Source: Aporrectodea caliginosa (Eukaryota; Annelida; Clitellata; Crassiclitellata; Lumbricidae). From it: a stretch of 64,000 nucleotides of DNA. The stretch lies in the NCBI GenBank assembly GCA_020284085.1, contig JACEVL010000339.1, positions 259,501 to 323,500 on the forward strand. The letters run 5' to 3'. The position numbers and the translations under genes were made by a program. Position 1 is the first letter of the stretch, and each line of letters opens with the position of its first letter. Shown piece after piece: positions 3,649-62,022 of the stretch. The notes beneath the pieces are model-generated. The model was not told the DNA's origin. It ran no database searches and saw nothing but the letters and a program-made list of their open reading frames with translations.

Positions 3649-6600
3649 ATGTCTTCAGACGGACGACGTAAATCTAATGGATTGGATCTTGTTCTGCTTG
3701 TAATCTTCGGTGAGTAATTAGTGTTCCTCAATAAATAAGTCACATTCTTATAAAATCTGAGCCAAAGTTATACTGTCACAATCATAACGGGACGTAATGT
3801 GTCTTGAATAATGAACACGGTTACACGGTTAGGCTCAACGACGGTTTAAGGTTTCAGTTATTATCGGTTACTACTTCCGCATTCAGTTAGCGCCCAACAC
3901 AGTCACCATAATGGTAAAAAACAAGATGTCAGGTTTTTGTACAAGGACGTAAAACGTTAGCTTCAAATGATTATTATCTCGCCTTGTATCGTCACATAGA
4001 TATAGGACTACTCACAATTTTATTTTGAAGGTTGTTTAAGTTTATCTCTGCAAAATAATCTCTTAAAATTCATTTGAAATGTGTGAAGAAAGTTATTCAA
4101 AATGAAACTGATATTTGTGCTAAGTTAAAAGTTCACTGGCTAGTTATGTGATGTCCGCCATCTCCTCCCCGACTGTGCGCTACTACAGGCGGTTTATGTA
4201 AAGGAGTGGTAACGTTTTGAAGTGAGATTTGAGTTCTGCTGATGTTCGATAATGTAGAGTAGTCCTTAGGTCTGGCACAGAATTGTTTTGTAAGTAAATA
4301 GGTATATTTTTTTATTACTCCACGGTTTCCGTCCTTAGGTTAGTTTCCTTTCTAAATCCAGGTTTCACAGGGAAACGGTAATCAGGTTGTGGCCGATCCT
4401 TTAATCTAGTGCTCCTGCGTGGGCCTAGGGTTTCGGGTTCAAATCCATCCGATTCTGCTATTAGGGGTTTCTTGACGAAGGTTTCCAAGGGTAAGGCTGC
4501 GGCGGAAGGGAGTTCGGCAACTTCCGGTTGAGGTTCCGAAAAGTCAGGGTTCGTAGTGGTACTCACTTCCTTACTTACTTTTCTATCTGCTTCTAGGAAT
4601 TCTATTCTATCCAACAGACTTCTCTGGTCTCCAGCCAATTCAGATTGAGCTTTAGACATTTCAGATTGGATTCTAGACAATTCAAAGTGGGATCTAGACA
4701 ATTCAGACTGGTTTCTGGACAATTCAGACTGTCCTTCGAACAGGTCCGTAAGTCTCCTGTCCATCTTGCCTTGTCTTGTCCATCAGTGACGTCAGTTAGT
4801 CGGTCAGTTAAATTATTTTGTCCAGCAGCTAAATCATTTTGTCCAGCAGTGACGTCAGTTAATCGTTTGTCCAATTTATTTTGTCCTTCAGTCACCTTTT
4901 CTATACCTTGCAACAAACGTTCAAGAATAGAGGCTCGAATCAACTCTGGTGAAAGAGGCCTGACTTCACCTTGCTCACTTACTTCCAAAGAATGCAATGA
5001 TTCACGAGACATAGTTAGAAATTATTATTAAAGATTATGCAACAAACAGTCTCAATTATATACAAAAATTCAAGTAAAACATTTAACTTAATCCTATGCA
5101 GTTTCTACTGGCAGTGACTTGCAATTACAATCAATTCAAAGTAAAGAAAGATGATTATTTACCCATCTTTTGAAGGACATGATTAATAATCCACGGCAAT
5201 TATAGGTTACGAAGACGGAATATAATCCAGCGAATAGGCGGAGACGACGACAGAGAGATAATCCAACGGGTAAGCGGAGACGACGACAGAGAGAATAATC
5301 CAGACAATCGACAATATTATTCCAAACGTACTCGTTTCTACTTTAAACTTCTATAGCGCACTATTTAACTCTTAGGAAGAGACTAACGCAAGTGTTTCTC
5401 AATTCCTTATCTAATCTACTTCGAAAACGGGGACTCAAAAAGAAATGATATCTCGGACGACTTGGCTCGACTCCTAGGTAATCCTTCGATACAGGTCTAA
5501 CCTCTAAGACGTCTCGGCAGCAAGTGACAAATTTTACTAGTGGCAGGGTCTCTAATCAGACACTTCAACCAATCAGCAGTCCAGCTCAAATGCTAGCCTT
5601 ATATGGACACGAAATAAGACAGAAAACCGATGACGTAGGGGATGAGTCAGTGGTTCTGCTGCTGTATCAGACGTGACTAGCGCGTGATCAGAGGCTGACG
5701 GAAAATCCCAATAATAATGCTATCAACGGCGAAAAATACCGAGGCCAAGCACGACACCATCGTTTCATCGGCTCGCCGCTTTTCTACCGCTAGAGGTCTC
5801 AGGGGACAGACACAAGCAATTCTAAAAATAGCCTCTAGTAAGGATTTTATAGATCATTACAGTTATGTTATTGAACATTTTCGGGATTTAAGTTTCTTCG
5901 ATTTTTTAATTGGCCAAATCCGAAAACTTGCATTTAACTAATGAAATTTGGAAATAGGTTATTTCGATACAGAATTTTTGCAGAACTAACGATGCTGTGT
6001 TTTGCAGCATTTTATTTTACTGCACCTGTTTAAAGCAGTTTATTTTTGCTCTTATGTACTTTAAGATTTCGTATTCATGAACCGTATCTCAGCATCCGAA
6101 GAGACATGCGGAGAAATCAACGGTCAAATCCTCTGCTATTTTAAAGCCTGGGACTTTGGGGTGGATTGGAATGCGGCATGGCAACTGTGCAATTCAAGAA
6201 ATGCGACACTGCCTGCTATTCGTAACGGAAACGAACAAGATGTTTTTGAAAAGTTTCTGAATATGCATATGTCTGACTCTACCGTTTGGACATCCGGCAG
6301 AAACTATACTTACGACAATTGGACATGGGTGGATGGACGACCATGCTCTAATCGAGGTAAAACTATGTTCTTTAGGTAGATGGACAACATTGTTTGCAAC
6401 CTTTTTCAGAGGTCAAACCATTTCCTGAAGTCTTCTTCTTCCATGTGTACAAATTCTAAGTCTACACAATATTATCATATTTTTATTAATTTTTATTGTG
6501 AGACTGTTCAACACGCTAAGAATGGATAAAGGTATAAGGCACGGAGAAGAAATGCAATGCGACGACTTTAATGTGGAGTTTCAAACAGAATTGCTTTGTA

Positions 6601-9600
6601 AGTAAATAGGTATATCTTTTATTACTCCACTTGCAAACGCACAATGGGACATACAACTGAAGACATTGTTATACATCGAAGTAATAATTAGCAATTAAAG
6701 ATGTAAATTGAATTAAACGTTTAGTGAAATGACTGAAATATATTAGTGTAAAATGAGTCATCTATACAGCATCCTAGTGATAAGTCCCTTTCCAGTAAAA
6801 AAATCAGAGCGCGGTATATCAAGATTATGTGAGCGAGTCCTAAGGGAGTATCCAGTTATCCGTTTCGGCAGGAGTAAATGATGGAGGACATGTCCGGGTT
6901 CGTAGAGGATAGCAGCAAAGAGGACTTCATCTGCCTTTGAACAAAACATGTCAAAAGTAGGGGTATTGGCTGGCAAAACCCTGTTGTATGAGCTTTCTAA
7001 TAATACTCCTCTCACCCTCATTTGCAAATCCCCACCATGCTGGAGATGAATACAGCATTCGTGCTACTGTGGTAAAACGTACAACATCATGGATTCGTTT
7101 GCCTGTCAAGCCACATGCACCAAAAGGACGCGAAGTGCGTATAAGGATTGCTTTGCCTTGCATTGCACCTGATTGTGTTATTAATTAGCATAGAGAACCC
7201 CAATCTACTTTAGCGCTGGTGAATAAGCTGGTGACCTGCGCTTGGCTTTCCAGTGGCGCTTTAGACGTTTGGAGATTACGATTACGATTAGGGATTTTAA
7301 TCGCTGCTTTTAAGAAATTCCTGTGATGTAAATAACTGAAATGCATTAATTGATAAATAAAAGTGAGAATAGTAGTAACTGTTATCGAAATTAATTAGTA
7401 AAGTGAAGCGCGCTGGTGTTTAATACCCAAGACATCGACCGATGGCGCACCAAAATCAGGCTGTAATAACGTTGATATTCTGGTGATCAGTACACTAAGA
7501 CAGAGAGACTCGCCTGTAGTGAATAAGATGCAGATGCTTGTGCCGTTTATGTGTTTATTTGATATTCTGTACTGAGTCTTTTAGGAAAAGCTCTTTGAAT
7601 TGGACTCTGCAATATATTTCATCTGTAGCGTCTTGACTTAGCAGGAGACGTAAACTGAGCTGCGTTAGAAGGTACAGTACGTATGGTCGTTACTCAGAAA
7701 TATATTCAAGGCACAGAGAGTCCGATTTTTAGTGTTGATGCTTGAGGGACAGAAGATTACCATGCAACGAAGTGATTGACGCTACACTAGAGTTGTTTTA
7801 CGCATGCATGCAGGGGCGAAGAATACCACTGATGCACGGGCTAGACCGATTACCTTGATCTAACAAAAGATAACAAGCAATTATACAATGTATAATACGT
7901 CTAATTAATGTGTTACCAAAGGCTGACTCTCTGTCTTAGTGTACTGATCACCAGAATTTCAACGTAAGTACAGCTTGGTTTTGATGTACCATAGGTCGAG
8001 GTCTTGGGTATTAGACAACAGCGCGATTTACTTTACTAATCAATTGTTATTTAGTGCTAATTAACATACAAGAAGTTAAATACAGTTCCCTTTTGTTCCA
8101 GTTGTCTACGTGTAGGTTTATGCAATGAATGCTTATTCACCTTATGTTTCAGATTGTAGATACATATTGAATGCTCATCCAAGGCATCACCCAGTTGTTG
8201 ATTACAGTTCCCGTATTCTAAACGCTGGAAATCCGCTTTATTCTGTCAACTATATTTGTCAATATTCAGGTGAGTTTAGTCATCCTCTTCCCCACTCTTA
8301 AAAAACGCATCAGTCAGACAAATGAATGTATAAGCATCAGCAATGGAATAAAATAAATAAATCAGCAATTAATTTCTTAGTGGGTTTAGCATATGTTACA
8401 TAGAATAAACAGTTTCGGATAAGAATTCGATAAAAGCAAAGACATTTTCATATTACAGTCAATGAGCTGAAATGTTACGAGGAAGTCGTTGCTGAGCTAA
8501 CAACTGTTGTTGAAGGTATTTTGAACTAATTAGCATTTAGGCCTACTAAACACTTACGATCATAGGAAAGCCTATCTCACACAGAATAAACCACGACCTG
8601 GAATAGATCTTTATTTCGGTAAATGCTGAAAAAGAAAGATAATTTTTAGAAGAACATTCCATTGCTGATTTAACTGCATCATATCGGAAGGGTGACAATA
8701 ATAGATTCCACAGTGTCAAAATGAACCATGCTAATATAAGTAAGTAAGTAGCCTTTATTTCATGTGACAAGCACACATGGAATAGAGTGTAAACCACTAT
8801 TATTACATATATTGTATATAATTATTTGAAATAAACTATTACAGTGTCAGAGTATAAAATAAAACATGCACAACTAAATATAACTAAAGTTGCATTGATT
8901 ACACTTTTAATCAGTTTAGATTTAACAAAGGCGGCATGAATGTATGTCCTCTCTGGCGAGGTAAGTAGACCAACTTGTCCTCACGAACAGATGACAAGTG
9001 CTGATGAACAGGTGGGCGAGGAACTGCGATATACCATGAAGTGCTTCCTGTCTGCTCGAGCAATTATCTCTTCTATTTTATGGTTTTCCCACATATCTGC
9101 TATGCGAGCCTTTTGGAGAGTTGCATTAATGCGCGCATTATCATGTGAGGTGAGATATTCAGCATATGCAGGTGGTTATATGATTCTAGTGAGAACGATC
9201 GATTGAAAATAACGTCCAGCTTCCAGATTTGTAGGACCTGCTCTGCGGCAAAGATGTACGTTGAAGGTTTTTGCAAAATCATACCGATCACTTTGATATT
9301 TAGTCTTAGATATTTTGACTCTGAAGGAATCTTGTTATCGAATGAAACAAATTACTTTTATTTCCATGCATTTTGACATTATATTTCTAATGGTTTAGGA
9401 GACGTGTGCAGTTACTTCAACGACACATTAAACGTAACGAACGGATGCATCATAATCAGTGACGACGAACGATCGTGGTATGACGCGAGAAATCAATGTC
9501 TTTTCACCGGTGGGGATTTGGCAGTACTAGATGATGCTGACCGATACCGTTTTCAAGACAACTTTGAACGCTTTGAACGCTACACTATATTATTATGGAT

Positions 9601-12600
9601 TGGATTAAGAAAAACATGCTGGCGCTGGAATTTGAATAAAAATGGTTTGCACATTTTTTTATTAACAACCATCTCAGATGAACTGCATCTGATTACGCCT
9701 AATTTCACGATTACCAACTGCAGTTGAAACTGATAAACTGCAGAAAGAAATACTATCAATCCTCTCATGTGTGTGTGTGTGTGTGTGTGTGTTGTGTGTG
9801 TTTAGCAACTGCTTCTCCTAGAAGCACGTTCATTGCATTCGGGTATTGTAACTGATTTTGAGGTTATCATTGTCTGCAACCTAGGATAACAACATCGTGT
9901 ACAATGTTAGCTTTGTTCGTGTGGGGGTAACCTCTTATGTTTCATACTCAAACAGAAATTCGGTATAGATGAGGTAATGTTCGATTGCAAGTCCAAATCC
10001 AAGGGTGACAGCTGTGAACACTTTTAATAGTTTAGAATTTTAGATTACACAGTTATTAATCTTGACAGCCAGTGATGAAGACGAAATTAAATACACCAAC
10101 TGGTCTAAGAAGTGGAATCCACACAACGGAGAGTGTATTTCTATCGACTCACTGAATGGCACATGGGGGACAACTGAATGCTCAAATAAACTAAAAGTCG
10201 TTTGTCAAGCAGGTTAGCATTACAACTTTTGCGCTGCGATTGGTAAAATTGTGGACCGGATACAAATAGAAAGAAGTTAGTTTATGTCGCGAAAAACGAT
10301 TTTTATTGCCTGAGCAATTTTAGCTATTCAATCTAAAACATATTCTGACTTTCATTTTCATTTTCGTCTTCCGCAAACTCACGTAAAGACGTAATTGACG
10401 AAAGAATAATAGGCCTAGTCACATTATTATTCTGAATTATTATTGTTTGCTTAAGTTTGGTCTGTTTTTTTTACAGCAGTTCAATCAGCAAAAGTTCTAT
10501 AGCTTCAAATGCTATAATTCTAAAAAAATCAACGTTTTCCTTTATTGTAAATAAAATGGGTAGCCTATAGTGATGGTGAAACAATCGTGACTACTTAAAT
10601 TCAATAGTGATTACCTTGTAATAGGTTAGCCTAAAATAAGATTTAAACTTTTGCAAATGCATTATTGACTGTCAAAATAAACCAGTGCTTATATGTAACA
10701 TAGCCTATTTACTTGTTTCTTTTCTTCGAGGTTTCGCCAACAAGACTTCATCAAAATCCGATAACTGTAAGTTAATCCGGTGAAATACTATTGGACTTAT
10801 ATCCGTTTTAAAAGTTCCAGTGCGTTGTTATCACGACTCAAATGACTGGTATAATATTATTATAAGTAACTTCACGGGGCTGCACCTGAGTATTTACGCG
10901 ATTACTGTATCGGGATGCATTCCTCCGCTTCCGGGTTGAGACTCCGATCGCTCGAGAAAAAGATCTTCTCGTACGACTATTCATATACTGTTATCATTAT
11001 GGGCTTCTTCCATCACTGTTTGATAAATATTTCCTTAAGGGTGTAGCTATCCATGGACATGATACTAGAGCATCCTGTAAATATCGAACCCCAGGGGCAC
11101 GAACCAGGACTAAGCAGTTCTCAATTAAATGCTCAGGTCCACCACTTTTGGATTCTCTTCCTCCCAATTTAATAAATACATAACACGTGGCTCCATTTAA
11201 AGCTCAACTGAAAAATTATCTTTTGAACACATAAAAAGAATATGACTCGATAGATTGTACCAGTAGTTAAGATTGTTTATGATACAACTGTGAACATTAT
11301 AATCTGTTTTGTTTTGATTTTGTTGTTGTTTGTTTGTTTTAAAGCTTGTACTGCAATGTTTTATTATTTAGTTGTTTGGCTATGATTTAGCCCTAACATT
11401 GTTATTTAAGTTGCATTTTCTATAATCATATGATCATAAAAATCGTCTTGCCATCTGTAAATGTAACTTGGAAAAGGGGCAGCCCTGCAATAGCGGATTA
11501 TTTTATCCTTTAGGGCTGTCCTGTTGACGGCATCAGCAGATTAACTTTTGAAAATGACTGATTGTTAATTATTATTTGTGCTGTTGTTGAATCAATTAAC
11601 CGCTGATTGATTGATTTGACGGATTAAGGCAGCGGATGCTGAAGGAAGGAAAGCAAATTAGCAATATGAAACAAATACAGGCTTACATTAGGAATATTGT
11701 TTGTGTTCTAACTTAATAAGAACAATAACAATAATGTATGCGTTCTAAAATCTACTAGCCTTCTTTTATAAACAATAATCTGATATCCTTGGTACAAACT
11801 GTGTTTATCTACGATAGCCTTTGTTTGGTAACTATCGAAAAACAGTATAGATCCATTTACCTATTTCATGTATTTACGAGAGATAAGCTGGAGATTATAA
11901 TTTATAGCCTTGTCAGTACCGGAACATGGATATCCAAAAGTATCAAAACGAGTCTTACTTTGGATTTTGTAAAAAAAATACTCATAATGAATAAATCTTA
12001 AAACAGAATGATAGACATTATAACCAACAAGGAGGTCTAATAACTTGAATGAAGATTTATTTAAATGCACATGAATCGTACTAATAAGCAGATACTTATA
12101 ATTTTATGTTACCTATCTGATGCACCATTAATATCTTTTGAATATTGGATTACTTGTTTTTTCTTGAAGCTCTTTCGTTGTCGGATGTTGAGCGGGAATC
12201 TCCATCAGTTAGCTATCCTACATGTGAGCAATTTGACTTTCACTCAATCATAATTAATGGAATAATAATAAGGGGTAATTCTGTTAATGACATCGTGAAA
12301 CTTGATTTGCCTTTTTTTATTAAGTTCATCTTTCCGAGTCAGTAATCATTCAAATTGTGATATCATTTCTTCGCTCTTTGAGTTTAATGATTTCTTTTCA
12401 TTTTAATTAACATAATTATATCAGGGAAGCTTTTTTACAATTCACCTATGCAAGTGAAACTGGTTGGTGGTTATCGTAAGATTCTTCGACTTCGCTGCTT
12501 AATTAGTGCTTTGTTATTTTCAGTCATCTCTGTAGTGATTGTGGGTATATGTACAATTGTCATCTCGAATATCATCGTTGCATTCGTTGTCCGAAAGTTT

Positions 12601-12678
12601 GTTCACCAGTAAGTTCATGTTACTAATTTACACCATTATTACTGTGATTTAAATAATGGGCATACAGTTTAGATCGTC

Positions 12679-12752
<74 letters not shown>

Positions 12753-13046
12753 ACTGTTTTGGTAGACTTGAATCTAGGAAACTTATTTTATGCTGATACA
12801 GATCTAAAAAATTCTGACCAATTTTAAATGCAAAGCTTGCTGTCAATAAAACGATTTAATATTTTTAAACGTCGTGGCGATCAAGATTGTATACCTTTGT
12901 TTTACAGTAGGACTGCACATGTCACATCGAACAGTGAGACAACTGCAAATATGCGTTATGAGGATATAGAGACAACTCGAAGGCAGGCGAATCCAGACGA
13001 TACCTACACTGAACTCCAACTGCAACCAGTTTATGAAGTCTGTTGA
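3649..13046 (+). CDS. receptor gene 1: type I double-CTLD receptor with ITAM-like tail
   Basis: Predicted cell-surface receptor of 390 aa. Exons: 3649-3709 signal peptide; 6066-6356 and 8153-8269 CTLD-A; 9399-9644 and 10069-10212 CTLD-B; 10731-10766 and 12170-12223 stalk; 12524-12608 transmembrane; 12908-13046 tail. All junctions are GT-AG and stay in frame (phase 1, last intron phase 2). CTLD-A shows ETC, LCYF, WQLC, WTWVDG and ends in YICQY. CTLD-B shows [18 protein letters not shown] and VVCQ. The TM exon reads ISVVIVGICTIVISN.. with a central Asn, then basic RK. The tail has YEDI (Tyr at 12957) and YTEL (Tyr at 13005) exactly 12 residues apart, which fits the ITAM consensus, plus a third Tyr in QPVYEV. 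Several N-glycosylation sites (NAT, NYT, NWT) sit in CTLD-A. The ligand is unknown. An additional 57-nt exon at 8459-8515 is possible. Confidence 0.87.
4275..5700 (-). pseudogene. decayed transposon-like coiled-coil ORF in gene 1 intron 1
   Basis: Two overlapping antisense frames (5012-4602, then 4764-4315) read as one protein broken by a frameshift near 4760. The N-terminal half repeats GQNxL/RLTDVT units and the next part repeats QSELSR units, a coiled-coil-like pattern. The C-terminus is basic and Pro-rich with RRSTRLKDRPQPDY, a type seen near the ends of retroelement proteins. The family is not identified. Downstream of its stop (4275-4322) lies a motif of about 46 bp that recurs at 6588-6633, which supports a mobile origin. 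About 5210-5300 holds a short tandem GGCGGAGACGACGACAGAGAG duplication upstream of the frame. Confidence 0.45.
6588..6633. repeat. second copy of the 4275-4322 element end
   Basis: CAGAATTG.TTTGTAAGTA and the following AATAGGTATAT..TTTATTACTCCAC match 4275-4322 almost exactly. It lies in gene 1 intron 2. Confidence 0.7.
6758..7165 (-). pseudogene. LINE 3' end fragment, antisense in gene 1 intron 2
   Basis: Two antisense frames joined by a frameshift. The first reads ..MLYSSPAWWGFANEGER.., the second ..EVLFAAIL..HVLHHLLLPK..YSLRTRSHNLDIPR... These are typical of the region after the reverse-transcriptase domain in animal non-LTR elements (SPAWWGF, N-L-R-x-R-x-H). The same family recurs on the + strand at about 46660-47240. 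It is 5' truncated and inactive. Confidence 0.7.
7195..7290. repeat. dispersed repeat family C copy
   Basis: A segment of about 95 bp (GCGCTGGTGAATAAGCTGGT ... CGCTTTAGACGTTTGG ... GATTACGATTACG). Related copies lie at about 19900-19980, 24541-24630, 27785-27900, 33995-34075 and 44165-44235, in both orientations. Several end in ATTACG/ATTACA units. I read it as a SINE family; the class is unassigned. Confidence 0.6.
7395..8045. repeat. inverted pair of SINE-like repeats
   Basis: Two copies of one SINE-like family lie about 400 bp apart in opposite orientation: 7395-7512 (minus) and 7922-8040 (plus). They match over roughly 120 bp, including CTGGTGATCAGTACACTAAG on one side and its complement on the other. 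A transcript through intron 2 of gene 1 could fold here. A shorter dispersed repeat ending in GGCGCTTTAGACGTTTGGAG lies just upstream (about 7195-7290). Confidence 0.75.
8459..8515 (+). CDS. possible extra linker exon of gene 1 between CTLD-A and CTLD-B
   Basis: The segment follows a good acceptor (TATTACAG) and ends at AG|GTATTT. It is 57 nt, phase 1 on both sides and open, and would insert a 19-residue acidic linker starting VNELKCYEEV with one Cys. No counterpart was found in genes 2-7, so it may be an optional exon or chance. The gene stays in frame with or without it. Confidence 0.4.
9769..9803. repeat. (GT)n microsatellite in gene 1 intron
   Basis: A dinucleotide run with one interruption, between the two CTLD-B exons. 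Confidence 0.9.
10985..11240 (+). pseudogene. LINE reverse-transcriptase C-terminal fragment
   Basis: Broken frames resemble the end of CR1/Jockey-type LINEs, with a PRxxTK..S-I-K..GPPL.DSLPPN-like pattern, then a FKxQLKNYLL-like end before AT-rich DNA. It is interrupted by stops. It lies in the long intron between stalk exons of gene 1. Confidence 0.55.
12681..12749. repeat. (AT)n microsatellite in gene 1 last intron
   Basis: A pure AT dinucleotide run of nearly 70 bp between the TM exon and the tail exon. Confidence 0.95.
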
Positions 13047-13971: not shown

Positions 13972-15425
13972 CAGTGGCGTAGCAATGGGTTGTGCAGGTT
14001 GTGCAATGCACAAGGGCCCATGGCGATCACGGGCCCCCCGGCGCTCAAGGGCCCCGGCGGTTAAGGGCCCCCGGTGGTCGTATACGGTCAGAGCGGCTTT
14101 CCTATCAGAATGTAATCAAATCAACTTGACCAAGTCTAAATCTATATGTACAGCGTACGCACTCAGGTTTTATTTGCATTAGCAGAGACTGAAGTCTGAA
14201 TGCCCAAATGCGTGATTTAGTAGGCTAAACAACCGGTATGCCATAGCAAAAATCTTTTAGTGTCCTATCTTTAATCTTTGGCCAGCAGTTTGATGTCATG
14301 TCCTAATAATTTACATATGGGTTTTTGTTCATTTGTTGATATTTTCCACTGCGGCACTACACAGTATGGACATTGGACAATTACAAAAATTCTGGAAGCA
14401 ACCCATGGCATCTCAAAACTATACAATCTCCGCAGTGCGACCTGAGTAAAGCAAGTGATCTGATCAAGGCATCGCATGAGAAATTTCAGAGCATGCGGAA
14501 TGAGTACGATTCTATCCGCGATAGGCCTACTGCTGTAAGTCTGGCAAAATCTTGAGGCATTAAAGATCATTTTAAAGACCAGCGTTTAAAGAAGGCAAAA
14601 CGACTATTATTTTGATTAAATGTGTCACGACGAATCGCCTTCGTCAACTGAGAAACGTTTAAGAGTGTTTTTGGCTACAGTGAATAGAGCATGAATGTGG
14701 ACAAATCAAACAGCGATTTTGTCAGCCTTAGTTCCTTGGCTGCAAAGTTCAGCGCGCTCTTGCCTTCGACATTCTTAGATGCCTCTGACGACGAATTGTA
14801 TGCAGCAGCCGAACTGTTAGCTAAAGGGTATGATACCGACATTTCGCTATCTTTTCCAGGCTCCAGCTCAGCTGTTGTAATTTAGCTCAAGCTTTCGTTC
14901 GAAGTTGACAACGAAGTCAACCATCTTCGAAATTGCACAACAGTTACTGTTACTCGAAGACTATTATGTTCTTTCGTCTACATTCAGTGATGTCTTCACT
15001 ACCTACATGTTGCTGCTGACTTTAACTGTGACTGTTGCAACATGTGAAAGATCATATTCAAAGCTGAAGCTCATCAAAAAATATTTACGAAGTACCATGT
15101 CAGAAGAGCGGCTGAGCGACCTGGCAATGTTGTCAATAGAAAATGAATATGCCAAAAAGCTTGATACTTCAAAAGTGGTGGATATTTTTGCGCAAGAGAA
15201 AGCGCGCAAACGACCGTTTTAACTTTTAGTAAGCTATTATTCCTCTTCTTAGATTACCGTAGAATTTAGACTTGTCCAATTTGATTATCTGACCTTTTAT
15301 GTTGTATGCAACATCGTTTTTTGCACAGCGTTTTTGTTTGAAATTGAATGGAGGAGGGGAGGGGTTCAAGGGGCCCACCACCAAAGCTCTGCACAAGGGC
15401 CCCCAAAATCCTTGCTACGCCACTG
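13972..15425 (+). mobile_element. decayed hAT DNA transposon (ZMYM1/TTF-type)
   Basis: An exact 8-bp duplication GATTTGGT (13964-13971 and 15426-15433) flanks inverted ends CAGTGGCGTAGCA..TGCTACGCCACTG type. The ends begin CAGTGGCGTAGCAATGGG and finish CCTTGCTACGCCACTG. Subterminal CAAGGGCCC units occur at both ends. Inside are pieces of a transposase on the + strand: about 14373-14555, 14691-14885 and 14905-15222. The last contains ATCERSYSKLKLIKKYLRST followed by SEERLSDLAMLSIE, the conserved hAT C-terminal dimerisation region. The reading frames are broken and most of the N-terminus is missing, so it is inactive. Confidence 0.88.
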
Positions 15426-27289: not shown

Positions 27290-27560
27290 TTATTATTACA
27301 ATTTGGAAACAGAATGTTTGAATTTCTGGTCGAGCTGAATGGAACTCTTTACCAGAACCAATCCGAAGATCATCCTCAATTAATATTTTTAAATCTAAAC
27401 TTAAAACTTATCTCTTCTCTAAGTACTATGATTAGTAAGTACATTGTAACGCGTCCTTTGAGTAAGACTCTGTTTTATTAAGGCGCGTTATAAATATAAG
27501 TTGTATTGTATTGTATTGTATTGTTTTGTATTGTATTGTATTGTGTTGTATTGTAGCATC
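27290..27560 (+). pseudogene. LINE 3' end with (TTGTA)n tail in gene 3 intron
   Basis: The remnant protein resembles a LINE C-terminus (LVELNGTLYQNQSED, then FLNLNLKLISSLS), followed by a noncoding AGGCGCGTTATAAATATAAG block and a (TATTG)n tail at about 27501-27556. It is truncated at the 5' end. Confidence 0.55.
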
Positions 27561-36029: not shown

Positions 36030-43020
<6,991 letters not shown>

Positions 43021-47357: not shown

Positions 47358-47436
<79 letters not shown>

Positions 47437-50400: not shown

Positions 50401-50955
50401 ATTTGTTCCGAGTTTGGTGCTAGATCGGTCTTTTATTTTTTTCAGTCATCTGTGCCGTAATCGCGGGTACCTGTGTAATTATCGTCTCGCTTATCATCGT
50501 TGCATTCATTGTCCGAAAATATGTTTACTAGTAAGAGCATTTAAAAAATTATATCAAATATTAAGTTGTCAATTAATGGACATAAAGCTTAGTTTGCAAG
50601 AACTGGATTAAATTTTATTATTCAAAAAATATAAATATACTGCAATGCTTGATTTTAGGAAACTTATTGCATCTTAATATTATTATCAAGACATTATATG
50701 GATCTAACAAAAACTTCAAAATTTTTATTAGAAAGCTAACTGTTGATAAGATAAATTTAAAACTTTGCAGAACGTGATAATGAATATGAATCTATACATC
50801 TTGTTTACAGTAGACGTTCACATGTCTCACCAGACAGTGAGACAACAGAAAATAGGAGATATCAGGATTTGAAGATGACTCGAAGGCAGGTGAATCCAGA
50901 CCGTACCTACATTGAACTACAACTGCAGCCACTCTATGAAAACGGAAATTCATGA
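44649..50955 (+). CDS. receptor gene 5: type I double-CTLD receptor with ITAM-like tail
   Basis: Predicted 381-aa receptor of the second subfamily. Exons: 44649-44724 signal (MFSIPHCRS..); 45697-45990 and 46443-46559 CTLD-A; 47589-47816 and 48278-48421 CTLD-B; 48847-48903 stalk; 50446-50530 TM; 50811-50955 tail. The equivalent of stalk exon 6 was not found, and the joined model stays in frame without it. CTLD-A has ETC, ICYF, RQLC, WTAGK, NWTWING and YICQYE. CTLD-B has [22 protein letters not shown] and GVVCQR. The TM lacks the Asn seen in genes 1-4 (VSLIIVAF). The tail has YQDL-x12-YIEL and a third tyrosine, YENG, which is a YxN-type site. A truncated LINE fills the intron before the TM exon. 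Confidence 0.85.
45060..45440 (-). pseudogene. degenerate LINE reverse-transcriptase fragment in gene 5 intron 1
   Basis: Antisense frames contain PCPFWCTPGFGLRSFTLHYL, which aligns to the GVPQGSVLGPLLFTLY-type block of LINE reverse transcriptase. A shifted frame follows where the YxDD block should lie. Stops and frameshifts are frequent. Confidence 0.5.
46125..46245 (-). repeat. SINE family B copy
   Basis: GCGCCGGTGTCTAATGCACA AGGCACCAACCGATGGC, then CCAAGCCGTAATCAGGTCAA: the reverse complement of the consensus seen at 34290-34428. Confidence 0.8.
46660..47300 (+). pseudogene. LINE 3' end fragment in gene 5 intron 3
   Basis: Pieces in different frames: YASPACWG, ARMEQLLNKLKRYGYLPP, VTADDSLFRPVITNESHILR and YNLRTRVHGYKLPPKDDRNF. 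This is the same LINE family as 6758-7165. It is followed directly by (GAT)n at 47330-47436. Confidence 0.75.
47330..47436. repeat. (GAT)n microsatellite
   Basis: A nearly pure GAT run after the LINE fragment, in the intron before CTLD-B exon 4 of gene 5. Confidence 0.95.
49020..50240 (+). mobile_element. 5'-truncated, frameshifted LINE in gene 5 intron before the TM exon
   Basis: A non-LTR retrotransposon remnant in sense orientation. The first frame (49043-49483) contains the reverse-transcriptase core: FIDFKQAFDSVWQ, then VRQGCGLSPDLFNLLLEAVM, then LRFADDIDLVAET with the FADD catalytic motif. The next frames (about 49501-49704 and 49677-50195) continue with LKINVQKTKTM, FVYLGGMIT, LLYGSECWCM and LTWFGHVTRM. 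Two frameshifts and a stop at about 49481 separate them. It ends in (GAA)n at 50205-50238. Just upstream, a 27-bp tandem duplication (TTTAAATTACCTTATTAAAA CGGG) occupies about 48970-49022. Inactive. Confidence 0.85.
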
Positions 50956-52051: not shown

Positions 52052-52112
52052 GTGTCTTCAATCCAACGTTTTAGATCTAAGGTCTTGCATTTTGTCCTGC
52101 TGATGGTCTTCG
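52052..52112 (+). pseudogene. relic 6: orphan signal-peptide exon with lost ATG
   Basis: The segment is 61 nt, exactly the length of exon 1 in genes 1-4, and similar to gene 2 (TGTCTTCAATC.AACG...AGATCTAAG...TTGGATTTTGT). The start codon is GTG instead of ATG, and the donor is TTCG|GTACGG instead of GTGAGT. The following DNA to about 52500 still resembles intron 1 of gene 1 (GGTTAGG.TCAACGACG, AAGCAAGATGT). I found no CTLD exons before gene 7. It is a dead gene of the first subfamily, truncated after its first exon. Confidence 0.8.
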
Positions 52113-52782
52113 GTACGGTAATTAATTCTTATTCTTCTTCAATAAAATATCTTCATTCATTATAAATATTGACCGAAGCTTATAATGTCATAATCCCTAA
52201 CAGGACCATGAATGTCTATTCTCGGTTAGGTTCAACGACGTTATTTATCTGTGTTTTGATTATTAACTCCAAACTTTTTGCGTCGAAGTAATCAGTTTGG
52301 TCAAATAAGCAAGATGTTACGATTCTTAAAGGGCACCTAACGTTGGCACTAAATCTCTGTTTGTTTGCACTGTTAAATAGTTTTACCCATAACTGTTTCT
52401 TGAAGGTTGCATATCAATGCAAAATAATTTTGTTAAACGTGAACGTTAATTGAATCAGTGTACTGTTTGGTCAGGTTTGATCTTTAGTTACGATAGTCTA
52501 CTGTTTAGCTGAACTGTCGGGCATCAGCCCTGGGTTGAAGGCTCTGCGAGCGAAGACATTTGCTTCCAGTTTCTGAAACCGCCTATGCCCTCTAGCGAAC
52601 TGAGATATAATCAAAACACTTGCCATGTATAGTCAGTGGGAGATAGCGTATGGAGGAGTGACCACCTGAATGATTAAGTTTCGAACATTGATAGAAATAG
52701 CTACCTGTCGACTTAGGGGATTATTTTTCCTCTTCTTAATAATTCCATCCGAAATTCCTAGCGTTGGCGTAGCTTTGGAAAT

Positions 52783-54035: not shown

Positions 54036-54199
54036 TTATGATAATGATAATGGTAATGGTAATACACAATACTATTACTGTTGCTGATGCGGCTGCTGAT
54101 GCTACTACTACCACCACTAATACTACTGCAGCACATCCAGTAGTCAATCAAACGCTTGACAGAATAAACAGTAGCCTACGGATGTTCGGAGAATTACTA

Positions 54200-54594
54200 T
54201 TCGAGAAGGATTGGCTAGGATGCAAAGTGTGCTCTTGTTGGAAATAATCCTGAAAAACCCAGCGTTGTAATTTTAAACGATCGGGAAGCTGTAATTATTG
54301 TTCGTATTTGCACTCATAATGAGTCAATAAAAACAGCGATAGCGGTAGTATTGGCTTTCGGTCGTGTTGATTCTCACTTCGCAATTAAATGCAAACCCGG
54401 ATATTCGTGCATATCCCATGTAGGCCTACCGTAACGGCAAGTAAGCCTACATGTCATAAGTCGCGTTACAGGACACTTGTAAGACTGTTTATACAAAATA
54501 AGGCCTTACAAATGAACATATCTCAGTAGGTTGTTAGTATTTACTTGTACTATTGGACTATTTTCTGGTTGAAAGTCGTCTATTCGCTGCCAGA
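54200..54594 (+). promoter_or_regulatory. conserved upstream block of gene 7
   Basis: It is homologous to 44240-44648 upstream of gene 5 (TAATTATTGTTCGTATTTGC, ACTCATAATGAGTCAATAA, and the CGCTGCCAGAATG start context). It contains two close GTAGGCCTAC-like palindromes at about 54420-54455. Confidence 0.5.
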
Positions 54595-57500
54595 ATGTTT
54601 TCGATTCCGTACGTGAAGTCATTAGCAATACATGTTCTCTTGGCAATAGCCTTCGGTAAGTATAGACCAGTTTTTATCAACATAATGGCTTGTGAACATC
54701 GATGTCGAAAGGAGTGCCTCCTGTATATTACGATTTAATTTTTAGATTGATTTATTATATTATGGCTGGCAAAAAATCCTAGGAGAACTTTCTTCCTTTT
54801 GTATGCAATTCGACAATGTTACGCCATTCACTATCAGTGGTTGGATCTACTACCTGAAATGATCTCCCGTTGTAGGCCTATCTGTGTCCTTCTCGCTAGG
54901 AACACTTGAAACACTGCAATTTGATGTATACTCATGTTTTAGGTCTTGACTTATATAGATAGATGGATGGATAGCTGGATGGGTGAATGGATGGTTGGAT
55001 GGATAGCTGGATGGGTGAATGGATGGTTGGATGGATAGATAGATGGATGGGTTGATGGATTGATGGATGGATGGATGGATGGATGGACTTTGGATGGACG
55101 GATTTATGGATTGCATGCATGCATGAATATGCATGGATGCATGGATGCATGGATGCATGGATGCTGATGCATTGCATATGATGCTTGGATTGATTTGATG
55201 GATGGATGGACGGACGGACGGATGGATGGATGGATGGATGGATGGACGGATTGGATGATTTGACGGATTGGATGGATGACGGATTTGATAGATTGGACGG
55301 ATTTGACGGATGGATTGACGGATTTGGACGGATGGATGGATGGATTTGATTTGAATGGATGGATGGATGATTTGATGGATGAATGGATTGGATGGATGGA
55401 TGGATGGATAGATGGATGGATGGATGGACGGATGGATGGATATGATGATGGATAGATGATGGATAGATAGATGGATGGATGGACGTGGGATGGATGGATG
55501 ATGATGATGGATGGATGGATGATGATGGATGGATGGATGGATGGAAGGATGGATGGATGGATGGATGGATGGATGGGTGAATTGATGGATAGATGGATGC
55601 ATGGATGCATGGATTGATACATGGATGGATGGCTTAATGGCTGGATGGATGGACGGACGCACGGACGGACGGACGGATGGATGGATGGATGGATGGTTTA
55701 ATGGCTGGATGGATGGATGGATGGACGGACGGACGGACGGACAGACGGACGGAAGGATGGATGGGTGGATGGATGGATGGATGGATGAGAGGGACCTTTG
55801 CCGTTCCTTCAGCTCTACACTTCCAGACAGAAGCAGCAAAGTCAGACAGACAGAGACACGGAGATAGAGAGACAGAGACAGCACGGGCATGCAGACAAAC
55901 CAGGAAGTTATTCAGACAGAGACTGGCAGCCAGTCGTTCAGACAGGCAGACAAATAGCCATCCAGCCAGACATACGAGTGCACAAATAACCAGTCATACA
56001 GAGCAGGAGATAGCCAGATACTCAGTCGTGCAGGCGTCTGGAGAGAAAGACAGGCAGAGAAGAAGACAGACAGAGTGGTAGACACAGACAGATGAGCAGC
56101 GAGACATTTCACTCTAACTGTGCCAAAGTGTCCGGCCATAATTATAGTCTACGAAAATTGAATATTTTATGAAAACTTTTGACCAGTATGAGAATATCAT
56201 TATTTTGTACAGCCTATGCTCGTTGAGCACATACTAGAGGCAAAAGCGTTTCATACTTATGCTCTATAAAATACTTTTAAACATTTAATTATAGGTCTAA
56301 ATGCTATAATTCTTAAGCTGCTTCTTGATTCGTCGACGTTTTGATTGCAGGAATCACAGAATTTCCTTTACCCGGAAACAGTATCCCGGCTAAAGAAACG
56401 TGTGTGAATGTCAGCGGTGAAATCATTTGCTATTTCAAAGGCAGTGAGAAGCCTGCGGCATGGAATGATGCGAGGGACCTTTGCCTTTCCTTCAGCTCTA
56501 CACTTCCTGTCATTAGTAACAGAAACGATCAAGATGCTTTAGCAGGCTATCTAAAATCACATATGAACAATTCTGTCGCATGGACAGCAGGAAAAAACTT
56601 TACATACAGTAACTGGACATGGATAAATGGAGAACCACTGAAAGATTCTGCTCAAGGTGCGGCCTTGTTACATTTTGATTTCGTACAAAGAACAAATACA
56701 GAAACACGACATGTATAATTTATGCATGTATCTATGCATCAAAACACTTAATATAACGCCTTTATACATCTCACAAAACGCAAGAATACGACAACGTATT
56801 TTATGTCTGAACTATTTCTTCTCGTTTATGTGAGAAATTTACTTAATATTGCGGGTGGCTCGGTCGCATTATAAACGTGGAGTACAATACAACACACAAC
56901 ACAACACAATATACTGGGGCGCGGTGGTATAGGGGTATGTTTGGTGCCTTGCAGCCGTATGGTTGCGGGTTCGAATCCACCTCAAAGCCGCCGCGTAGGG
57001 ACCCTGGGCAAGTCCTTCACTTGCAATTGCTCATGCGCTTCGGCGTGAAACTCCGATTCAGCGTTCGCGCAGTAGTCGGGAGCGCCTCTGAATGGGAAAT
57101 CTGGTAGGGGCGCTATAACAAGTGTTCAAATACAATACAATACAATAATATTATATTTCATGTGTGTAGTGTGTATTGCTACGGATTTTCAATCCACTTG
57201 AATCGAAACATTTCCTAGGTTTCTGGACATTAATTCCAGATGATTTATTTAAGGATAAAATTGTCAAAAAGTACCACACTCATTTAGGCGCCTTTGTTGA
57301 AGTTCATGAAGAGCGTGGTCTCGAGGTCAAAAGGTCATTCGGATGAGAAATAGGCCTATACACGATCCAAATCATATGATATTGTGAATGCAACTAAGAC
57401 TCAATAAGCACTAATTCTGTTAACACGATGCAGGCTAAAACAATTGTTCAATGTGGGCTAATGGTTCTCCATATGACTCTGAACCTGGTGGTCCTGCCAA

Positions 57501-60500
57501 ACCATCACGTACAACTGCTCAACGCCGTCGATGTACTGCTGCGTAGATGTGTATATATAGGCCTACTTCTGAGCTTTGGAAGGGGGTAATATCAAATTCA
57601 GCTGTTTTGTATTCTGAAGATTAATTGCCAGTTTGATCAAAATTTGTATAACATAAAAAGTTCATAAATAATCAAGATAGAACATGTCGGATAACTAGAA
57701 ATTTTATCAGTGGTCAGTGGCGGATTAACTTCAGAATCATAGAGTATCACATTTTTTCGTTTTGTCTATAAACGCGGAAGGTATAATCTATCTATGAAAT
57801 TTCTAATGCGCAGTATTCGTCTGTATGTTGGTGATACATTAATGTAATTCATTAGTATATCTGATGTGTTGAATTCATTTATCTGATACGACAAACATTA
57901 ACCGCGTTTTGTTCGTTCACACTGAGACTTTTCTGTAATTAGGCCTACACACATGCATTTATACGACTTAGGCTAATCATGTGCTAATGTGTTTAAAGCG
58001 ATAGCTTGTGACTACATTATTTTTAATGCTGTTTTATTCAACCATGTGCCTTATATATATTCTGTTTTTACTATTGTTTACGCAGTACAACTTCACGAAG
58101 AAGGAATACTAGAAAAAGTCAATGCAGCGTTAGAATCAGATTTTAAATTCACTGCACTAGCTGCATCAGACGAATTGCCCTACATCTGCCAATACCAGGG
58201 TTTGTTGTTACTTATTCATTTGCATTCTAAGTAGAAAACAATTAATTTTATTGAACAACATTGGCTTTCAGTTTTAACTTAATAGTTTAAAAGTTTAGAC
58301 TAGAAACTTGGAAAATGTATTTCATTTTACTACGCTTTCTATCACATGCATTGCTTTAAAGTGTACACACTGATTAAGTCTCATTGCGCTGGACTGTGTT
58401 TGGGTTTAATTTCTTAGGATAGTTGTAGGCCTACTACATAATCACCATAGCATTTCCGAATGGTTATTTTAGGTGCTTACTGCAGCTCCTCTAGCGACAT
58501 AAACGTGACTGACACATGTCTGAGATTGAGTAACGACAATCGAACGTGGTATGATGCAAGAAATCAGTGCCTCATGATTAACGGAGATTTGGCTGTAATA
58601 AGCAACAAAGTACATGAACATCTTATAGAGAAGTTGACATTAAACCAGAGCTATTGGATTGGATTGAGGAAGAAGTCTTGGCGTTGGACTCTGAATGATA
58701 ATGGTTTGTTCAAGATAATACTTTTTTTCTAAAGATGACTTATAACGAATCGGCATAGGTTTAAGACTAAACTTTTGCACCAGTGTAGTGGTTTAAGGAA
58801 AACTAGTAGGAATTTAAATGAAACTTGTTTATTCACTTTAGTAGTATGAAATAATACTAAATAATTATTTAATTATGCATCAACCCCATGATACATTGAT
58901 CACGTGTGTGAACTCAAATAATGTCACCACATTGGAAGTTTCGTCTGTGAACACTGCTTCCAACCAATGCCAAGTTTAAGTTTTTGTTGTGGTCTGATTT
59001 AAATTTATTCTTGCTCAATTGCCGTTTCAATCAATATGCTGATTGATGACTCAAATACAAAGGTAGGCCTATCCTGGTCCCCTGTATTCCGTTACCTTTT
59101 CGCCTCAACCATGCAAAATATATCTTCCTTGTCCTTTCTAAGATTTATATTACATAATTTGTCCTTAATTTTTCATGTGCCTAGCGGAATCTAATGACGA
59201 GATTAAATACACCAATTGGGAGGGAAATATATTTTCAAGAAGCGGTGAATGTATTTCCATTGATGCATCCTATGGCGAATGGAAGGCAATTGCATGCACA
59301 GAAAAACATGGAGTTGTATGCCAAAGAGGTCAGTGCTCGAAATCCTAATTCCCAATTGCCTGTTAAGTTAAATACTTACATAATAACAGCTGCTTGGTTT
59401 AACACCACATTTTTATTGCTTATGTTTACTTTTTTAATATAAAATGATGCACTCATATCAACTATGAGAGACGATAAGGAAGCCGCTCTTTTCCTTTTGT
59501 TTGTTTGTGTCTTGAGTAGGCAATTCAGCCGAACATCTTATGGTCCTGATCACGGTACATGAAAAATGCAGGACTTTCTCTTTACATTTGACCTATTTAG
59601 ATGTAAACCAGATTTAAGCAAACAACGAATATTTATTTCAGGTCAGGGCGTGACATCACCTGCGACGACGACGGAGACGTCTGTTGCAATCCAGACAAAA
59701 ATAGATTCAATTACTTGTAAGTCAAAGTAACATTTTAATGACCTTTTAAAATTTATCATAGGCCGGGTTAATAAAAGCCCGGTAGTGAAGTGTTATCTAA
59801 TGGTAAAAATAAGTCATTTCCTTCTTCGTATGTGTATCAAACTTCTCTTATTGCAGCTGTTTTGGCAGAAAGTACATCTGGCGGATCACAAGGTTCTACG
59901 CCGATGGGTCTATGTAAGCATCTAGATTTGAAGTATTTCTGAAACTTTCTGGATACTTTCGCCCGGTATTTTGACTTCTGGATCAAAATATTACTTGCCG
60001 TAATAGGTCAAAGTTTAATCTGGAAGCTGCATTCAAAGAATGTTTTCAAATCCAAATCCTATCTACTATTTCGGTTTTTTAGTCATTTTGTTATTTAGTT
60101 ATCGCCGGGGTTGGGTTGGGAGCGCCTCTGAGCAGATATCTTGGAGGGGAGATATATAAGTCTTCTGAATGAACAAATGAATTCATAAGCAAATGTTCTA
60201 ATAATGTTCCCTGAAGTTTACGAGGAATTTTAGGATGAAACTAGCATAAAACACATAGACTAAAGCTAGTGATACGCGGCGTATCTGTTTAGCACTCGTC
60301 TTGCAACGTAGAATCTGCAGTCTCAGAGCTGCTCTGAGATATTCATTGTGATGCCATCTTGAGCAACTCCTCAAACTGGAATAAATATCGCATTTGTCTA
60401 GCTCCGTCGTTGAGGGCTGTTGCTTGATATAGTTCGCATCTAAGAAATATTGCAAAAATAAATGTTTGCGTGTACATAAATCAAATAACCTGTGCATTCC

Positions 60501-62022
60501 AATTTCGGCGCTAAATTATCTAATCCTATACTTGATTGATTCACGGACTTTTGAACAGGGCCCTAAACAGGCGAGAAACAAGCATCCTTGGTTTAATTGT
60601 ATTACAAATTTTTGAAGCCATTTTAGAGATAATTTTCAACAGCAGCGCTTACGATCTAGACAAATTGGTAGGTTTAGGTGCTAAAGTGAGTATTCAGAGG
60701 AAACCAGTGTTTCGCTCGATTACTGCATAAGATTACACTAAGATATTAGTACTTATAATAGAGATCAGATATAGATTTTGAGACAAGCCAATGTTGTAAT
60801 GGAATAGTTGCAAAGTCTTTGTCATGTTGTTAGTGTTTGCAGTTGTTGGTGCTGGAATAGTAATCATCATCTGCATCATCGTCATCATCGTCTTTGTTCT
60901 GACAACCAAAAAAGGGTCTGTAAAGAAAGCTCACTAACTACAAACAAGTCATTGTGATAAAAAAAAATGTACAGAGCGTAAGACCTACGAAATAACACCG
61001 GCATTTTACTATGTATGTAGGCCTATTGCAATTAGACACGGCCTTCTAAGTCCCTCTCGAAGTCGGCCAGACTAAGTGGTGTTCGAATGCATTATCAGCT
61101 GCAGGTCTATAAAAAGACGAATGATGCCTGATCTGCAGTAACAGTCTCCAATGGCAGACTCCTGCAAACACTTATTATTATTGCTATTTATTTATTATCA
61201 AGTCTAACGACAAAGCAGCAATCGATGACGCGTAGCAATTGCGCTTACGGACTTTCTCAACGTCCACAATCCGTACCAGTTCCAAAGAAGGTTTAACCAG
61301 CACACTCCACAGTACAAGGTGGGCGCTCATCCAATTACAAATCAAACAGGGTTACATTTTACGAATATGTCTGGAAACATTTAGCAAGTAGCTGAAACTA
61401 CGTCATAAAATTGTAATTTTAGTTTTGTGAAGTTTGGTAAAATAATAGACTCGGCTTCTCGAACTTGAAGTCCTAAGTTAAAAATTGCCTAGTTCTGCTT
61501 GTCACCGTTATTGTTTACAATTTCAGAGGAAATCGTCAAACAATGCTCAGTGACAGTTCCCCACAGAATAAGCGTGAGGAATTAGATAGCAGGATAACCA
61601 ACACACCGGTCTATACATCCGTCAACGAATCTGCCAACGCTCCAGTTACGACATCAGATGATATGCGAGGTGTTTACGCGGAGATTCCAATGTCAACAGC
61701 CAATCAATCGGAAGATGGAGCGACAGACCAACAGCCTGGACTCGTCTACGCCTCTTTGGAATTCAAAGAAGATCCCACCAACCTGGAATCCAATAAGACA
61801 AGCCCCAATACAGCAGCTCCAGTTAAAGTCGGTCCATTGGGAGACATATATGCCATGCCAGATGCTAAGGGTCATGTAGTTAATTCTCCATGTCATGATT
61901 CAGCTTCTCAGCCGGTCAAAGTCGCCCCACAAGGTGAAGTAGTTTATGCAAATCTGCAAACAGAAATGTTGGGCAAAGAACATCAGAGGAACAGGATCAT
62001 ACATAGTGAGGTTCACGACTGA
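54595..62022 (+). CDS. receptor gene 7: type I double-CTLD receptor with ITIM tail
   Basis: Predicted 518-aa inhibitory-type receptor. Exons: 54595-54655 signal (MFSIPYVKS..); 56351-56656 and 58086-58199 CTLD-A; 58473-58703 and 59185-59328 CTLD-B; 59642-59716 and 59857-59913 Thr/Ser-rich stalk; 60843-60915 TM; 61527-62022 tail. The donor after the TM exon is a weak GG|GTCTGT, but its phase 2 matches the homologous junctions. The TM is a pure aliphatic run ([16 protein letters not shown]) followed by TTKK. The tail is about 165 aa, four times longer than in the other copies, with PVYTSV, GVYAEI, LVYASL, DIYAMP and VVYANL. LVYASL and VVYANL meet the ITIM consensus (I/V/L/S)xYxx(L/V/I), which in known receptors recruits SHP phosphatases. 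The likely polyadenylation signal is at 62497. Confidence 0.87.
54957..55790. repeat. (GGAT)n/(GGAC)n tetranucleotide satellite in gene 7 intron 1
   Basis: More than 800 bp of ATGG/ACGG-type tetranucleotides with interspersed TTGATGGAT variants. Long open frames on both strands (HPSIHPSIH and MDGWMDGW) are artefacts. Confidence 0.97.
55786..55835 (+). pseudogene. fragment of CTLD-A exon 2 at the edge of the satellite
   Basis: GATGAGAGGGACCTTTGCCG then TTCCTTCAGCTCTACACTTC matches gene 7 exon 2 at about 56467-56510 (GATGCGAGGGACCTTTGCCT, TTCCTTCAGCTCTACACTTC) with only a few differences over about 45 bp. It encodes a piece of the helix and strand RDLC..SFSSTLP. It has no splice sites and is followed by CAGACA-rich simple DNA (55835-56100). 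Confidence 0.85.
56880..57150 (+). repeat. tRNA-derived SINE in gene 7 intron 2
   Basis: The A box TGGTATAGGGG fits TRGYNNARNNG and the B box GGTTCGAATCC is canonical. The body is AAGCCGCCGCGTAGGGACCC, then TTGCTCATGCGCTTCGGCGT, and the 3' end is GAGCGCCTCTGAATGGG..GGGGCGCTATAACAAG with an (ATACA)n tail. It is flanked on the left by (ACAAC)n. An antisense copy is at 29280-29460. Confidence 0.85.
57470..57615 (+). repeat. SINE body related to 32821-33010
   Basis: It shares the 3' part TTCTGA.GTTTGGAA..GGG..GTATCAAA and TTGTATT with the SINE at 32821. No intact promoter boxes. Confidence 0.4.
60108..60182 (+). repeat. LINE/SINE 3' tail
   Basis: GGGAGCGCCTCTGAGCAGAT, then CTTGGAGGGGAGATATATAA, then GTCTTCTGAATGAACAAATG: the same 3' end as 21520-21606 and 51965-52042. 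Confidence 0.65.

Follow-up and report, generated by a model that had tools for sequence, protein, structure and literature searches.

How might a tandem cluster of lectin-like genes come to carry two opposite classes of tail on one class of ectodomain? The question is raised by a gene array in the annelid Aporrectodea caliginosa, at positions 3649-62022 of the window, by which we mean the whole stretch of 64,000 nucleotides analysed (GenBank assembly GCA_020284085.1, contig JACEVL010000339.1, positions 259,501-323,500, forward strand; coordinates below are those of the window). We think it fairly probable that the array is a tandem complex of type I receptors, each with two C-type lectin-like domains (CTLDs), working as a paired activating/inhibitory set in which gene 5 is a recombinant. 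Gene structure, CTLDs, transmembrane (TM) segments, tail motifs and the mosaic pattern of gene 5 can be read in the sequence itself. We take as the strongest sign of paired signalling the apparent origin of gene 5 by recombination between the two classes.

Gene array and exon plan

Open-frame and self-similarity scans of the window revealed six repeats of one exon set, all on the forward strand. Splice-site candidates were enumerated, several per exon, and picked by hand with the repeats as guide. Five uninterrupted joined frames were rebuilt from the raw window, encoding proteins of 390 (g1), 389 (g2), 397 (g4), 381 (g5) and 518 (g7) amino acids; this independent rebuild matches exactly the lengths given in the preliminary description. 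All 39 introns of the five complete genes are of the GT..AG form, and in every gene the exon boundaries are in phase 1, except the TM/tail boundary, which is in phase 2. The exons encode, in order, a leader, CTLD-A (two exons), CTLD-B (two exons), a stalk (one exon in g5, two in the others), the TM segment and the tail. The proteins of g2, g4, g5 and g7 are 36-58% identical to that of g1. Chance open frames are ruled out by the five colinear genes and by an outside homologue, P0001, described below.

Gene 1 (3649-13046), backed by its joined frame, GT..AG introns and phases, has nine exons (3649-3709, 6066-6356, 8153-8269, 9399-9644, 10069-10212, 10731-10766, 12170-12223, 12524-12608 and 12908-13046). 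The joined frames of gene 2 (17351-23473; 17351-17411, 18041-18331, 18691-18807, 19611-19838, 20739-20882, 21383-21418, 22407-22460, 22951-23035 and 23320-23473) and gene 4 (36030-43020; 36030-36090, 36744-37028, 37778-37912, 38575-38805, 39865-40008, 40662-40697, 41642-41695, 42112-42196 and 42858-43020) also comprise nine exons each. Gene 5, the probable mosaic (44649-50955), has eight (44649-44724, 45697-45990, 46443-46559, 47589-47816, 48278-48421, 48847-48903, 50446-50530 and 50811-50955), and gene 7 (54595-62022) again nine (54595-54655, 56351-56656, 58086-58199, 58473-58703, 59185-59328, 59642-59716, 59857-59913, 60843-60915 and 61527-62022). Just 5' of the true exon, a long GGAT-type microsatellite terminates in a small duplicate of part of g7 CTLD-A (55775-55849).

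The array had been described as six genes and one relic sharing one plan and one orientation. Five of the genes are intact, but gene 3 (26119-34609) is frameshifted and lacks the tail motif, and the relic is a lone first exon. The recognised exons of gene 3 lie at 26119-26188, 26588-26879, 29533-29649, 30024-30257, 31189-31335, 32352-32417, 33872-33956 and 34480-34609. Its first CTLD-A exon carries one surplus base (292 nt, not a multiple of three), and the remaining seven of the eight recognised exons, a set that covers one stalk exon, hold the phase plan. The relic (g6) is an orphan signal-peptide exon on the forward strand (52052-52114), found by tblastn with the g2 signal peptide (E = 4e-4).

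Two CTLDs per protein

Pfam Lectin_C was retrieved in all five whole proteins, in two stretches each (75.4-89.8 bits, cut-off 22.6), and in all five CTLD-A pieces run alone (27.6-36.2 bits). The expectation that exons 2-5 encode CTLDs was thus borne out by a domain search, both domains passing the cut-off in 5/5 proteins. No domain besides Lectin_C was above the Pfam cut-off in any of the five, and neither ricin-type nor FN2 domains were detected. CTLD-A spans 6066-8269 in g1 (34.7 bits), 18041-18807 in g2 (30.7 bits), 36744-37912 in g4 (27.6 bits), 45697-46559 in g5 (36.2 bits) and 56351-58199 in g7 (33.7 bits). CTLD-B, likewise matched by Lectin_C, spans 9399-10212 in g1 (where it gives the best stretch, protein residues 181-285), 19611-20882 in g2, 38575-40008 in g4, 47589-48421 in g5 and 58473-59328 in g7. 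We rejected a recent origin of A by duplication of B within the gene, as A-B blastp gave E values of 2e-5 (g7), 0.013 (g5) and at least 0.35 (the other three).

A profile of the five proteins retrieved 144 distinct PDB sequences at E<=0.01. The top match was LY75/DEC-205 (E 1.9e-38, spanning both CTLDs), followed, among the best 60 of the 144, by the yolk sac IgY receptor, PLA2R and C-type mannose receptor 2. When g1 CTLD-A was searched alone, its best PDB match was KLRG1, a weak one (E 4e-4).

The motifs EPN, QPD, EPD and QPN are absent from both CTLDs in all five proteins (ten CTLDs). WND appears as a letter string a single time, in g7 CTLD-A (residue 37 of 140), close to the start and not at the motif's late position. 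Because the EPN/QPD forms are absent and the lone WND is misplaced, the CTLDs are unlikely to bind sugars in the usual calcium-dependent way. In g1, g2, g4, g5 and g7, respectively, CTLD-B contains 7, 5, 6, 6 and 6 cysteines and CTLD-A 6, 4, 6, 4 and 4; on the predicted pairing, the long-loop cysteine pair seems to be missing from CTLD-A of g2, g5 and g7.

Transmembrane segments and tails

Every one of the five proteins contains a single strongly hydrophobic TM segment (19-residue mean 2.84-3.53). No charged residue lies inside the 19-residue window in any of them, and there is therefore no sign of adaptor pairing via the membrane. An N-terminal hydrophobic leader exceeds the hydropathy threshold in four of the five. 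A type II topology with a single CTLD was rejected, as two CTLDs precede the C-terminal TM segment and a tyrosine-bearing tail. The type I topology, the two CTLDs and the receptors' own tyrosine motifs, all proposed earlier, are supported by these features. Among g1, g2, g4 and g5, the TM segments are 46-71% identical.

The tails fall into two classes. The four short tails carry two tyrosines in the form of an immunoreceptor tyrosine-based activation motif (ITAM), YxxL/I-x6-12-YxxL/I, always with a spacer of 12: YEDI-x12-YTEL in g1 (12908-13046), YQDL-x12-YAEL in g2 (23320-23473), YIEL-x12-YTEL in g4 (42858-43020) and YQDL-x12-YIEL in g5 (50811-50955). In 20,000 shuffles per tail, this form arose by chance in 0.27%, 0.14%, 2.1% and 0.56% of cases for g1, g2, g4 and g5, respectively. 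It is absent from the g7 tail (61527-62022), which has 164 residues and five tyrosines. Two of these, in LVYASL and VVYANL, have the form of an immunoreceptor tyrosine-based inhibition motif (ITIM), and the others lie in VYTSV, VYAEI and IYAMP; at least two ITIM-form sites were found in 1.5% of shuffles. None of the four short tails contains the ITIM form. The tail of the frameshifted g3 reads YQIF...RTEI and has no two-tyrosine ITAM-like motif, an absence in line with upkeep of the motif in the other genes.

Gene 5 as a probable mosaic

The two halves of gene 5 have different closest relatives. In the ectodomain the closest is g7, with protein identities of 73% and 50% over the first and second CTLD-A exons (A1, A2) and 64% and 67% over those of CTLD-B (B1, B2). 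In the back half, g5 is 57% and 50% (TM) and 62% and 67% (tail) identical to g1 and g2, respectively, against 29% (TM) and 23% (tail) to g7. The DNA is divided in the same way. Alignments of g5 with g7 form six pieces, from the upstream region at 44259-44411 through exons and parts of introns, ending at 48519, and include CTLD-A DNA at 82% over 342 bases. In the back half, two segments align with g1 between 48811 and 50975; the second one takes in the TM exon, the tail and the final intron between them. The alignment ends thus place the switch from g7-like to g1-like DNA within 48519-48811, in the intron after CTLD-B.

Synonymous divergence (dS) changes accordingly. In the ectodomain, dS is 0.41 (0.29-0.55) for g5-g7 but 1.74 (1.16-3.07) for g5-g1 and 1.69 (1.12-3.00) for g5-g2, the upper bounds near 3 reflecting saturation and the dS ceiling; over TM and tail it is 0.32 (0.15-0.56) for g5-g1 and 0.48 (0.27-0.82) for g5-g2. 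The pair g2-g4 exhibits no drop in the back half (0.68 and 0.92). The simplest history would be a single exchange in the intron after CTLD-B, which placed an activating-type tail onto a g7-type front. Under the reverse history, in which g7 gained a foreign inhibitory tail, g5 and g1 must nonetheless have exchanged sequence or been homogenised afterwards. The stretch upstream of the g5 leader exon (44259-44411) resembles that upstream of g7 (54177-54330; 71% over 154 bases), and the two are possibly a shared promoter.

The long stalk-TM intron of gene 5 also houses a broken reverse transcriptase copy of the long interspersed nuclear element type, recognised by eye at 49000-50200. A Pfam search of 49671-50189 gave only DUF6451, below the cut-off.

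Selection and probable gene conversion

Ratios of nonsynonymous to synonymous divergence (dN/dS) were 0.31-0.59 in CTLD-A (10 pairs), 0.25-0.53 in CTLD-B (10 pairs) and 0.27-0.74 over TM and tail (6 pairs); they are rough, many dS values being above 1. From these values, the proteins are seemingly maintained. At the exon level, the second CTLD-A exon, which sits downstream of the WTW motif in the place expected for the long loop, gave 0.50-1.45 (7 pairs) versus 0.16-0.41 (4 pairs) in the first. The CTLD-B exons gave 0.19-0.49 (first, 7 pairs) and 0.40-0.80 (second, 7 pairs), the second being raised as well. The nonsynonymous excess of A2 over A1+B1, a contrast that leaves out the second CTLD-B exon, had p values of 0.002 and 0.014 in g1-g2 and g2-g4 and of 0.15 and 0.68 in g1-g4 and g5-g7, and the g1-g2 ratio stems partly from low dS. 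We do not claim that the second CTLD-A exon is under positive selection, since the excess is significant in two of four pairs and the second CTLD-B exon is also raised. The CTLD-A long-loop region may be a site of binding diversification, which we regard as a lead and not as proof.

The second CTLD-B exons of g2 (20739-20882) and g4 (39865-40008) encode stretches with 92% protein identity, and their dS is 0.08 versus 1.18 in the first CTLD-B exon. Local gene conversion between them is likely.

A homologue outside the window

The five-sequence profile retrieved one protein, P0001, among 5208 candidates (E 1.1e-63). It comprises 355 amino acids, is encoded on a 1389-base contig with the source code 'lgn', and is 30-32% identical to each of the five window proteins. 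In a single open frame it presents a leader, CTLD-A, CTLD-B, stalk and TM segment, colinear with the window proteins, and Pfam detects two Lectin_C stretches in it. Because the frame runs across the sites of the window-gene introns, the sequence is probably a transcript. Its uninterrupted frame in the same order supports the splice joins from signal peptide through CTLD-A and CTLD-B to TM.

With g7 alone as query, no homologue was detected at E<=0.001 among 8000 candidates scored. A six-sequence profile recovered P0001 again, together with P0002, a weak partial fish match covering 14% of the query. So few matches say little on rarity, the database being suspected to hold mostly unspliced gene calls.

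A proposed paired set and its alternatives

The clustered genes g5 and g7 have similar ectodomains and opposite classes of tail motif, the layout of paired receptors. In the scheme that we favour, the two CTLDs would bind an extracellular ligand, most likely a protein or another ligand rather than a calcium-bound sugar. In g1, g2, g4 and g5, the YxxL/I-x12-YxxL pair would be phosphorylated by a Src-type kinase and would then recruit a tandem-SH2 kinase of the Syk/ZAP-70 type, leading to cell activation. The ITIM-form tyrosines in the long tail of g7 would instead recruit SH2 phosphatases and restrain the cell. Gene 5 would join an ectodomain and an upstream region of the g7 kind to an activating-type tail, having arisen by recombination within the intron that follows CTLD-B; whatever the inhibitory receptor binds could then also be read as an activating signal. 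We infer the recombination history, phosphorylation, partners, ligand, cell type and immune role from the sequence, and the terms 'immune-type' and 'same job as NK receptors' (NK, natural killer), used in the preliminary description, are to be taken in the same way. A broader version would make the array an invertebrate counterpart of the NK complex, built on type I double-CTLD receptors with ITAM or ITIM in the receptor itself, its activating members made from inhibitory ones by an intron-recombination swap of the membrane-tail cassette and its CTLD-A long loop diversifying under selection. We put this version forward tentatively and with some doubt.

Several observations weigh against the paired reading. 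At its N-terminus, g4 has a short hydrophobic run and no segment above the hydropathy threshold. A stricter ITAM, with 6-8 residues between the motifs, is found in 0/5 tails, and only two of the five g7 tyrosines match the full ITIM form, (I/V/L/S)xYxx(L/V/I). As the four short tails are paralogous, their four motif matches cannot be counted separately and amount to one observation of conservation. In addition, YxxL/I sequences can function as endocytic signals. The P0001 tail, of 23 residues and maybe cut, has no full tyrosine motif, so P0001 backs the architecture and not the signalling, and its structure model, run together with five CTLD-A exons, is poor (mean pLDDT, the predicted local distance difference test, 41.1). 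Regarding the mosaic, a weak alignment with g1 exists in g5 CTLD-A as well (67% over 243 bases), and for g5-g4 the dS intervals of ectodomain (1.26) and of TM and tail (0.69) overlap. Even in the control pair g1-g2, dS over TM and tail, 0.34 (0.18-0.59), is below that of the ectodomain, 0.82 (0.61-1.19), with disjoint intervals; some back-half homogenisation or constraint is therefore likely.

One alternative is that these are lectin receptors for endocytosis or scavenging, resembling the mannose-receptor family, and that their tail tyrosines serve as YxxPhi sorting signals without ITAM/ITIM signalling. LY75/DEC-205 is indeed the best solved relative by sequence over both CTLDs, and the YxxPhi form occurs at 2-4 sites in each of the five tails. 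Sorting, however, would not need the fixed 12-residue spacing seen in 4/4 short tails, the presence of two contrasting kinds of tail with a single ectodomain class is better explained by opposite signalling, and the proteins have just two CTLDs with Lectin_C as their sole domain above cut-off. We hold this alternative to be unlikely. The receptors might also serve allorecognition or self-recognition rather than pathogen sensing, in a polymorphic histocompatibility-type complex such as has been proposed for Botryllus fuhc and Hydractinia alr. A tandem family with ITAM/ITIM-like tails resembles those loci, as far as the accessible part of PMC12065747 describes them, and the raised dN/dS of the second CTLD-A exon over the preceding one would suit such a role. 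Against it stand the excess at p<0.05 in only two of four pairs, the raised second CTLD-B exon and the low dS behind part of the g1-g2 ratio, and we judge it quite unlikely. A third alternative, that the tails do not signal and that the genes, in an array undergoing decay, encode soluble or decoy lectins or are mostly pseudogenes, would fit the frameshift in g3 and the relic g6. This we regard as very improbable given five fully open genes of 381-518 codons, dN/dS below 0.6 in all 10 CTLD-A and all 10 CTLD-B pairs (and, roughly, 0.27-0.74 over TM and tail in 6/6), and TM segments as similar as those of g1, g2, g4 and g5.

In vertebrates, NK and myeloid cells depend centrally on paired activating/inhibitory receptors. 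If the paired reading is true, the array would be a separate case of this design, with both tail classes on a CTLD frame, and would bear on the age of the design and the number of its origins. It would further reveal how an inhibitory receptor gives rise to an activating partner, and demonstrate that one type I receptor can unite a lectin head with an ITAM of its own. To our knowledge, vertebrate NK lectins do not combine the two in this way.

Other features of the window

The palindrome TAGGCCTA occurs in 30 copies in the window, versus 0.57 expected from dinucleotides, and is perhaps a lineage-specific repeat or signal. Between g1 and g2 lies a decayed hAT-type element (13972-15425). Pfam detects a hAT dimerisation region in it (14944-15222, E 2.8e-9); its inverted ends read CAGTGGCGTAGCAA, and each flank bears the identical 8 bases GATTTGGT. 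No Rfam family reached its gathering score in the window.

Comparison with known systems

Lectin-like receptors of the NK complex (Ly49, NKG2, CD94 and KLRG1) are type II proteins with one CTLD. Their genes are clustered, both activating and inhibitory members occur, many are without the calcium/sugar motif, and the activating forms signal through partner adaptors. The window CTLDs are also without the EPN/QPD motif, and KLRG1 is the best PDB match of g1 CTLD-A; unlike the NK receptors, the window proteins are type I, have two CTLDs and carry an ITAM-like motif in the receptor itself. The earlier contrast with NK-type lectin receptors as type II, single-CTLD proteins was incomplete, as type I multi-CTLD receptors exist, with LY75/DEC-205 the best relative. 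The mannose-receptor family to which it belongs (MR, LY75/DEC-205, PLA2R and Endo180; CTLD group VI) likewise has tandem CTLDs and gives the best sequence match. Its members are type I, with ricin-type and FN2 domains and endocytic tails that are not known to carry an ITAM/ITIM set. Membership of this family (8-10 CTLDs, N-terminal ricin-type and FN2 domains) was rejected, all five window proteins having two Lectin_C domains only. The accessible part of PMC514892 gives group VI proteins 8 or more CTLDs, and describes soluble double-CTLD proteins (Fugu F1, immulectins and C. elegans D1) without a transmembrane domain. The latter share two CTLDs with the window proteins, which do have a TM segment.

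Motifs of the same kind are known on other ectodomains. Fc-gamma-RIIA is a type I protein with an immunoglobulin (Ig) ectodomain. It has its own ITAM, whose peptide exhibits the x12 spacing of the window's short tails in the available portion of PMC5589908, and a peptide holding the same stretch was used as a control peptide (PMC3114867, likewise from an excerpt). Among invertebrates, the portion of PMC12065747 at hand reports clustered type I FcoR in Botryllus, with ITIM and hemITAM motifs on Ig and sushi ectodomains, and clustered Hydractinia Alr candidate genes with ITIM/ITAM motifs; both resemble the window in being invertebrate clusters with such motifs, and no CTLD is named for FcoR in that portion. 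An amphioxus leucine-rich repeat receptor, studied in Jurkat cells, is described as phosphorylation-dependent and ITIM-type (PMC8211107, in part), and a review, in its accessible text, makes the general statement that C-type lectin receptors of type I are multi-domain and that their cytoplasmic part can carry an ITAM or ITIM (PMC9505182). Among the matches listed from open-licence literature, mostly titles and abstracts, no type I double-CTLD receptor with ITAM/ITIM tails was seen. This agrees with the suggestion that the family is undescribed but is a weak test of it, and families with ITIM/ITAM on other ectodomains are in print.

The layout is most like that of vertebrate paired activating/inhibitory receptors (KIR, LILR, PILR and others), which likewise combine very similar ectodomains with opposite tails and whose activating members have been proposed to derive from inhibitory ones (PMC3533184, in the part available). 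The ectodomains of KIR and LILR are Ig, whereas those in the window are CTLDs; here, the paired layout appears on a type I double-CTLD frame, with the likely exchange point within one intron.

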